From positions 248,001 through 312,000 of the forward strand of contig NZ_JAJISD010000006.1 in the NCBI RefSeq assembly GCF_020880995.1: a DNA stretch of 64,000 bases, written 5' to 3'. Both the position numbers and the translations under genes were made by a program. Below, piece by piece: positions 52,857 through 54,851 of this stretch. The first letter of the stretch is position 1; every line of letters starts with the position of its first letter. The notes under the pieces are model-generated. The model saw nothing but the letters and a program-made list of their open reading frames with translations. It did no database searches and was not told where the DNA came from. Source of the DNA: Reyranella aquatilis (GTDB lineage: Bacteria > Pseudomonadota > Alphaproteobacteria > Reyranellales > Reyranellaceae).

Positions 52857-53654
52857 ATGGGCAAGCTGCTGCTGGTCGGATGCGGCAAGATGGGCGGCGC
52901 CATGCTCGACGGCTGGCTGGCGCGTGGCCTCGTGGCCGCCGACATCGTCGTGGCGGAGCCGGTCGAGGCGATCCGCCCCCGGCATGCGGGCGTCCGTGTG
53001 GTTTCCTCCTCGACCGAGATGACGGAGACGCCCGAGATCGTGGTGCTGGCGGTGAAGCCGCAATCGATGGACGAGACGCTGATCGACCTGCGGCGCTTCG
53101 CCGGCCAGGGCTCGGTGTTCCTCTCGATCGCGGCCGGCAAGACGCTGGGCTATTTCGCGGCCCGCCTCGGCCATAGCGCCAAGATCGTCCGCTCCATGCC
53201 CAACACGCCGGCGGCGGTGCGACAGGGCATAACCGTCGCGACTGCGGCGGCCAGCGTCACGGCGGCCGAGAAGAAGCGCTGCCATGAACTGCTGGAAGCG
53301 GTCGGCCAGGTCCTGTGGGCCGACGACGAGGCGCTTCTGGATCCGGTCACGGCCCTGTCGGGCAGCGGGCCGGCCTATGTCTTTCTGCTGGTCGAGGCGA
53401 TGGCCGCGGCGGGCGAGAAGGCGGGTCTCCCCGCCGACATGGCCATGCAGCTTGCCCGGGCAACCGTGGCCGGCAGCGGCGAACTGCTGCGGCAATCGAA
53501 GGAGCCGGCCTCGCAGCTTCGCGTTAATGTGACCAGCCCCGGCGGCACGACCGCTGCCGCCCTGCAGGTTCTGATGGCAAAAGACGGTATCCAACCTGTG
53601 TTCGACAAGGCGCTGGCCGCGGCCTCGAATCGATCGAAGGAGCTGGCGGGATGA
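52857..53654 (+). CDS. proC: Pyrroline-5-carboxylate reductase
   Basis: A 265-residue NAD(P)H-dependent reductase that makes L-proline from pyrroline-5-carboxylate. Rossmann loop LLVGCGKMGGAMLDGWL, then VLAVKPQSM, MPNTPAAVRQGITV and the signature VTSPGGTTAAALQVL near residues 222-236. GSGPAYVFLLVEAM lines the active site. Length normal. The TetR-type gene overlaps its stop in ATGA. Confidence 0.97.
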   Translation: MGKLLLVGCGKMGGAMLDGWLARGLVAADIVVAEPVEAIRPRHAGVRVVSSSTEMTETPEIVVLAVKPQSMDETLIDLRRFAGQGSVFLSIAAGKTLGYFAARLGHSAKIVRSMPNTPAAVRQGITVATAAASVTAAEKKRCHELLEAVGQVLWADDEALLDPVTALSGSGPAYVFLLVEAMAAAGEKAGLPADMAMQLARATVAGSGELLRQSKEPASQLRVNVTSPGGTTAAALQVLMAKDGIQPVFDKALAAASNRSKELAG

Positions 53655-54286
53655 CAGAAGCGGAGGAGCAGATTCGCGACCGGGCACTCGACGCCTTTCT
53701 CGGGCTGATCGCGGAGAAGGGCTTCGCGGACGTGTCCCTGCGCGAGGTCGCCCAGGCGGCCGGGCTGGGCTTTGCCGATCTCTATCGGCTCTATCCAGAC
53801 AAGATGTCCCTGGCTGCCGCCTTCATGGCCCGGATCGATGCGGAGGTCCTTGAGGGAACGCCGTCGACAACAGATCCGGAGGAGACCGTCCGCGACCGCC
53901 TGTTCGACGTGATGATGCGCCGTTACGACGCGCTGAAGCCGCATCGCGCGGCCCTGCGGGCGCTGCGCCGCGCCGGCACGCGCGATCCGATGGTCGCGCT
54001 CTCCATGGGGCCGGCCCTGCGCCGATCGATGTCGGCCATGCTGGAGGCCGCATCGGTGCCGAGCGAAGGCCTGCCTGGTGCATTGCGGCAGAACGGGCTG
54101 CTGGCCATCCATTATGCCGTGTCGCGGGTCTTCGACGGCGACGAGTCGGGCGATCTCTCAAAGACCATGGCGGCTCTCGACGGCCGCCTCAAGACCGCGG
54201 AACATTGGTCCCAACTCTTTGATAAATATACCAAATCCCCGATGGCGCGAGGACCGCAGGAACCGCCGGTTTCGCCTGCTCCGTGA
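53651..54286 (+). CDS. TetR-family transcriptional regulator
   Basis: A 211-residue regulator with an N-terminal TetR helix-turn-helix (GFADVSLREVAQAAGLGFADLYRLYPDKMSL, residues 24-54) and an unrelated helical ligand domain. Translation is coupled to proC. The downstream phasin promoter contains operator-like sequences, so this protein is one candidate regulator, although PhaR-type sites there suggest another. Ligand unknown. The C-terminal 25 residues are Pro-rich and disordered. Confidence 0.88.
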   Translation: MTEAEEQIRDRALDAFLGLIAEKGFADVSLREVAQAAGLGFADLYRLYPDKMSLAAAFMARIDAEVLEGTPSTTDPEETVRDRLFDVMMRRYDALKPHRAALRALRRAGTRDPMVALSMGPALRRSMSAMLEAASVPSEGLPGALRQNGLLAIHYAVSRVFDGDESGDLSKTMAALDGRLKTAEHWSQLFDKYTKSPMARGPQEPPVSPAP

Positions 54287-54288
54287 AG

Positions 54289-54363
54289 ATTTTGTGCGGT
54301 GCACAAAATCACCCCTTGACTCGCTGCAGCGCATCCTTAAATTGAGCCTCGTTGTGCACCGCA
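54289..54363 (+). promoter_or_regulatory. Phasin promoter with three TGC-N3-GCA sites 30 bp apart
   Basis: TGCGGTGCA at 54295, TGCAGCGCA at 54325 and TGCACCGCA at 54355 share the half-site TGC-N3-GCA at an exact 30-bp interval. The first also lies inside ATTTTGTGC-GGT-GCACAAAAT (54289-54309). Between sites one and two is TTGACT (-35, 54316-54321), and TTAAAT (-10, 54337-54342) follows site two, spacer 15 bp (or TAAATT with 16 bp). Site three overlaps the expected start of transcription. The arrangement is typical of a repressor such as PhaR, whose known targets carry TGC/GCA half-sites. Confidence 0.7.
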
Positions 54364-54416
54364 GCAAAGGCGGGGCACCCAGCTCAGCCTTTGTTCGACC
54401 CTGCAGGAGAATTCCC

Positions 54417-54851
54417 ATGTACGCCAACGGCGCCTTCAAGAACCCCTTCGCCGACTTCGACTTCAGCAAGATCTCCAGCGAGTTCAAGCTGCCGGCCATG
54501 AACGTCGAGAGCTTCGTCGAGACCGCGCGCAAGAACTTCGCGACCATCACCTCGGTCAACACCGCCGCCGTCGAGTCGATGAAGACGATCGCGCAGCGCC
54601 AGGGCGACATGGTCCGCGCCGCGATGGAAGACCTCTCCAAGCATGGCAGCGAAGTCCTCGCCGCCGCGACCGTCGAGGAGAAGGCCGCCAAGCAGATCGA
54701 CTTCATGAAGAAGACCTACGAGTCGGCGATCACCAACTCGAAGGAGCTGGCCGAGCTCTACACCAAGGGCCAGACCGACGCCGTGACGGCGCTGAGCGCC
54801 CGCGTCGCCGAGCTGACCGAAGAGGTCAAGGCCGCGATCGCCAAGAAGTAA
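54417..54851 (+). CDS. Phasin-family protein
   Basis: A 144-residue helical protein of the phasin_2 family that coats polyhydroxyalkanoate granules. The N-terminus reads MYANGAFKNPFADFDFSKISS, then long amphipathic helices (MNVESFVETARKNFATITS and EDLSKHGSEVLAAATVEEKAAKQIDFMKKTYESAI). CAGGAG precedes the ATG with 7 nt spacing. It has its own strong promoter and ends at a strong terminator, a monocistronic layout common for phasins. No PHA synthase is in the window. Confidence 0.93.
   Translation: MYANGAFKNPFADFDFSKISSEFKLPAMNVESFVETARKNFATITSVNTAAVESMKTIAQRQGDMVRAAMEDLSKHGSEVLAAATVEEKAAKQIDFMKKTYESAITNSKELAELYTKGQTDAVTALSARVAELTEEVKAAIAKK

Follow-up and report, generated by a model that had tools for sequence, protein, structure and literature searches.

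Three evenly spaced motifs at the promoter of a phasin gene in Reyranella aquatilis are very probably operators of PhaR, through which the gene would be subject to PHB-responsive repression. We analyzed a stretch of 64,000 nucleotides (the window), in which TGCN3GCA was found at 54295-54303 (TGCGGTGCA), 54325-54333 (TGCAGCGCA) and 54355-54363 (TGCACCGCA), with start-to-start distances of exactly 30 and 30 bp. The first-pass annotation of this DNA had described three TGC-N3-GCA sites with a 30-bp period across the phasin promoter, and both the positions and the spacing were verified. The features of the region are listed below, with the strand where one applies; the 58 orthologous promoters are defined further on.

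53651..54286, plus strand: TetR_N protein, 211 aa (PF00440, E = 5e-7)
54289..54309, core 54295-54303, no strand: predicted operator 1, a perfect palindrome upstream of the -35
54316..54321, plus strand: -35 element TTGACT; TTGAC is near-invariant in 58 orthologous promoters
54325..54333, no strand: predicted operator 2, a PhaR-type core in the promoter spacer, without AT-rich arms
54338..54343, plus strand: -10 element TAAATT, 16-bp spacer; T1, A2, T5 and T6 are invariant in 58 promoters
54352..54367, core 54355-54363, no strand: predicted operator 3, TTGTGCACCGCAGCAA, at the expected transcription start
54405..54409, plus strand: Shine-Dalgarno sequence AGGAG; columns near-invariant to invariant
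54417..54851, plus strand: phasin gene (Phasin_2, 144 aa; PF09361, E = 7e-19)

The predicted promoter is of the sigma-70 type and is well supported by its conserved -35 and -10 elements; its transcript would be expected to begin near 54350-54351. The -35 had already been recognized as TTGACT, but the -10 had been given as TTAAAT. We read it as TAAATT because the four positions listed above are invariant, whereas T54337 of TTAAAT is variable. Operator 1 is built of 9-bp arms (ATTTTGTGC-GGT-GCACAAAAT) centred on site 1; this palindrome, which was absent from the first-pass annotation, begins just past the TetR stop codon (54284-54286). The closest named relatives of the phasin were from Reyranella, including R. 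massiliensis and R. soli, and Enhydrobacter aerosaccus ATCC 27094 was also among the matches.

The motifs were compared with binding sites published for PhaR. Footprints in Bradyrhizobium diazoefficiens gave the consensus TGCRNYGCASMA (PMC6201568), the PhaR regulon of Sinorhizobium meliloti has the consensus WNWD2NYGCRNYGCRNH2WNW, whose mutation abolishes binding (PMC12542648), and the consensus in Ralstonia eutropha is YTKNTGCRNYGCANMAR (PMC12849132). All three sites in the window fit the core TGCRNYGCA (YGCRNYGCR). Read on either strand, site 1 matched all three of these consensus sequences with 0 mismatches, site 3 had 0 mismatches to the footprinted B. diazoefficiens sequence and 0 to 2 over the three consensus sequences, and site 2 had 1 to 3 mismatches to the published sequences. 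The AT-rich arms that complete the longer palindrome were lacking at site 2. PhaR-type operators bracketing the phasin promoter had been proposed before; as predicted sites, they match the published consensus and are conserved.

The same genome encodes PhaR as a protein of 213 aa, in which PF07879 and PF05233 occur together (PHB_acc_N, 6e-30; PHB_acc, 5e-19). A search of 37 Reyranella genomes found PhaR in 36, and the one in which it was not found is 75% complete. All Reyranella phaR loci that we examined have a CGCA[CG]TGCG box some 55-86 bp upstream of the gene, and this conserved arrangement is consistent with autoregulation. In the phaR upstream region L053 the box reads CTTGTCGCACTGCGGCAT and is located about 82 bp before phaR. 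The phaR box lies in the gap between phaR and a divergent pair of genes, among them one for an alpha/beta-hydrolase (PhaC-like). Two PhaR-type boxes, spaced 20 bp apart, were also found upstream of a third phasin gene in the R. aquatilis genome (L054, G000:C1, 1084909-1085208), roughly 77-97 bp from the probable start of the gene, beside which no TetR gene was seen.

We also asked how the full box is distributed among 240 genomes of the class. The pattern TTGTGCRNYGCACAA was found in 61 of 140 genomes with PhaR versus 8 of 100 without (p = 3e-10), so that eight genomes without detected PhaR still carry the full box. When genomes were matched for size (1.0-2.9 Mb), the corresponding numbers were 14 of 45 and 8 of 81 (p = 0.003). 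The reversed form of the pattern, used as a control, was found in 5 of the 240 genomes. A genome-wide search with the loose 21-bp S. meliloti consensus yielded 17 palindromic matches versus 24 for its reversed control, i.e. no enrichment of this consensus. Because of this, the identity of the boxes rests on their location and conservation, not on counts.

Conservation was examined in 58 promoters, comprising 57 orthologous loci from one-per-species genomes and the window itself. The site 1 core TGC-RNY-GCA and the site 3 core TGC-RNY-GC[AG] were each present in 58 of 58 promoters, and the TTG arm of site 3 was invariant. At site 2, YGCN3GCR was detected in 43 of 58 promoters at a fixed register, 9 bp from the start of the -35; 41 of these 43 had R-N-Y, and the strict TGCN3GCA form occurred in 35 of 58. 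Site 2 was missing or degenerate in the other 15 promoters, sites 1 and 3 in none; in one promoter (L134) site 2 was displaced by one base. Conservation in relatives was the check that the first-pass annotation had put forward for its own proposal, and the PhaR-type boxes were indeed kept. The triplet it described is conserved as regards sites 1 and 3, but the exact 30-bp triplet is not universal.

The inner triplet varies, with 12 sequences among the copies of site 1 and 13 among those of site 2, and the R-N-Y rule is therefore not a mere consequence of shared ancestry. Changes were counted by parsimony on a tree built from flanking coding DNA and were treated as independent events. Site 1 had 25 changes at its R and Y positions, all 25 of them transitions; site 2 had 17, of which 14 were transitions, and site 3 had 4, again all transitions. 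Overall, 43 of the 46 inferred changes were transitions, compared with 320 of 661 changes (48%) in background promoter columns. With changes taken as independent, the binomial p for this excess was 6e-11 overall, 1e-8 for site 1 and 0.004 for site 2. A protein with two-fold symmetry that contacts the sites would be expected to leave such a pattern of transitions.

The triplet with the R-N-Y core was found once in the R. aquatilis genome, and the strict R-N-Y triplet occurred in 2 of 385 genomes of the class (276 genera sampled), both of them Reyranella. The strict pattern missed a looser triplet in genome G222, which represents another genus of the same family, and thus the strict search understates the spread. 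In this genome (locus L164), the phasin promoter has three boxes with spacings of 27 and 30, and the middle box, CGCATCGCA, is located inside the promoter spacer. The G222 triplet suggests that promoters with three operators probably predate the genus Reyranella.

A trivial origin of the triplet, by chance or as an artefact of base composition, has to be considered, as TGCN3GCA is common in this GC-rich genome: single motifs numbered 40 in the window versus 30.9 +/- 6.3 expected, and enrichment was not clear. However, a triplet of equal period, with any period of 12-60 bp allowed, was found in 0 of 300 windows simulated with a first-order Markov model, which agrees with the first-pass view that the arrangement is unlikely by chance. 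In addition, the sites have been kept in 58 genomes, where their substitutions follow a palindromic pattern, and we regard a chance origin as refuted by this conservation and as having practically no probability left. Alternatively, the boxes could serve as operators for the TetR-family protein encoded next to them (53651-54286) in place of PhaR. TetR proteins bind palindromes too, and a TetR-type gene immediately precedes phasin not only in the window but also in a second genus of the family and in several families besides. However, co-occurrence of the boxes with the TetR gene failed in both directions. Boxes were found without TetR in G047, where an S4-domain gene takes its place, and at the third phasin gene described above. 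Conversely, in G050, where TetR and phasin are paired and PhaR was not detected, the phasin promoter lacks a box, and G051 has TetR 27 bp before phasin, with PhaR present and no RNY-type box between them. Moreover, the start of the TetR gene overlaps the proC stop, which leaves it no promoter of its own there, and the motif is the one published for PhaR. Although decisive cases are few, they favour boxes that follow PhaR rather than TetR; the TetR_N protein is probably not the regulator that reads the phasin boxes, and we consider control by TetR very unlikely.

A further reading, compatible with PhaR operators and refining that explanation, is that the fixed 30-bp register is itself a functional unit, with three PhaR oligomers placed side by side in an all-or-none switch. 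Among the 43 promoters with site 2, the distance between sites 1 and 2 was 30 bp in 36, 29 in 6 and 28 in 1, and that between sites 2 and 3 was 30 bp in 41 and 31 in 2. Sites 1 and 3 were 60 bp apart in 38 of these 43 promoters versus 7 of the 15 without site 2 (kinship ignored), and a sigmoid PhaR binding curve was reported for the phaP promoter of R. eutropha (PMC3570403). On the other hand, spacings of 28-31 bp occur in the promoter set and of 27 bp in G222, and the distance from site 1 to site 3 was 55-60 bp whether site 2 was present or not. Two sites without a middle one were also found at 56 bp in G037 (same order) and at 60 bp in G052 (same class). In most promoters lacking site 2, its position is still 30 bp from site 3, i.e. 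the promoter sets this distance, and much of the period therefore follows from the positions that the sites take with respect to the -35 and the start. Site 1-2 spacing changed 5 times on 4.66 branch-length units with site 2 and 5 times on 2.71 without, too few events to separate the two classes. The three sites are also not on one helical face, as the first-pass annotation had assumed: at 10.5 bp per turn, 30 bp corresponds to 2.86 turns, or about -51 degrees per step, and 60 bp to 5.71 turns, which places sites 1 and 3 about -103 degrees apart. Helical phasing was accordingly rejected as the cause of the period. Taken together, we find the fixed-register unit unlikely; cooperative assembly of PhaR on the triplet is possible.

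PhaR operators, the preferred reading, have counterparts at phasin promoters of other bacteria. In B. diazoefficiens, phaP1 has two footprinted PhaR sites 6 bp on either side of the -35 and 29 bp apart (PMC6201568, PMC10888616). These correspond to Reyranella sites 1 and 2, with the same TGCRNYGCA core and the same gene type, but no third site was reported at the transcription start, where Reyranella has one. In R. eutropha, a betaproteobacterium, footprints at phaP1 placed BS1 immediately before the -35 and BS2 around the transcription start (PMC12849132). Both are of the same palindrome type and correspond to Reyranella sites 1 and 3, whereas the predicted third site of R. eutropha is in the coding region and that of Reyranella in the promoter spacer. 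The phaP1 and phaP2 promoters of S. meliloti contain the same 21-bp palindrome with AT-rich arms, in two copies that flank the -35 and that were confirmed by mutation and gel shift (PMC12542648). The two copies are 18 or 28 bp apart, whereas Reyranella has three sites at 30 bp. The PhaR phasin switch is well known, and the Reyranella promoter has one operator beyond the one or two reported in relatives; with all three published positions together, it is a small elaboration of the known switch.

In these relatives, PhaR occupies such sites and PHB prevents its DNA binding (PMC6201568). For B. diazoefficiens, binding of purified PhaR and its release by PHB were demonstrated (PMC6201568), and binding of PhaR to its site was shown in S. 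meliloti (PMC12542648). By analogy, we infer that PhaR binds and represses the Reyranella promoter and is released from it by PHB. In the absence of PHB, free PhaR would sit on operator 1, the strong palindrome that closely precedes the -35, and on operator 3 at the start, and the weaker operator 2, between the -35 and the -10, might assist in R. aquatilis. RNA polymerase would be excluded from the occupied promoter. As PHB granules grow, PhaR would bind the polymer, leave the DNA and be titrated away, so that phasin could be made and could coat the granules. Phasin would then displace PhaR from the granules, returning it to the promoter, and repression would resume. Operator 2 may act in an accessory way, by increasing occupancy. 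Of all parts of this scheme, the role of operator 2 is the least certain, because it lacks AT arms and several lineages do without it.

Outside the phasin promoter, the only other full TTGTGCRNYGCACAA in the R. aquatilis genome was found about 27 bp before dusB (nifR3). This box, TTATTGTGCACTGCACAAGAT, is a full PhaR-type palindrome (L159:2006-2026; G000:C1:267005-267025). Behind dusB are NtrB-, NtrC- and NtrY-like genes, named here from sequence features of their translations. The box was present in all 25 of the Reyranella dusB loci retrieved and absent in all four of the readable dusB loci outside the genus. No report of PhaR control of ntrBC was found in the literature searched; in Azospirillum, ntrBC mutants show altered PHB accumulation (PMC9049629). 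We tentatively suggest, with somewhat less than even confidence, that the PhaR code extends beyond granules: three graded phasin operators would be accompanied by the palindrome at dusB-ntrB-ntrC-ntrY, through which PHB status would directly set how strongly the nitrogen regulators are expressed, and the tightness of phasin shut-off would depend on the spacer operator, as a site that evolution can adjust.

These data extend the PhaR operator code to Reyranella, a genus for which we found no PhaR study in the literature searched. The promoter unites the Bradyrhizobium layout, in which sites flank the -35, with the Ralstonia layout, in which one site lies before the -35 and the other at the start. 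The box before dusB-ntrBC, if bound, would tie carbon storage to nitrogen control via one regulator. Finally, with one core in 58 promoters that either have or lack the spacer operator, the set offers a natural series from which one may learn what extra operators add to repression.
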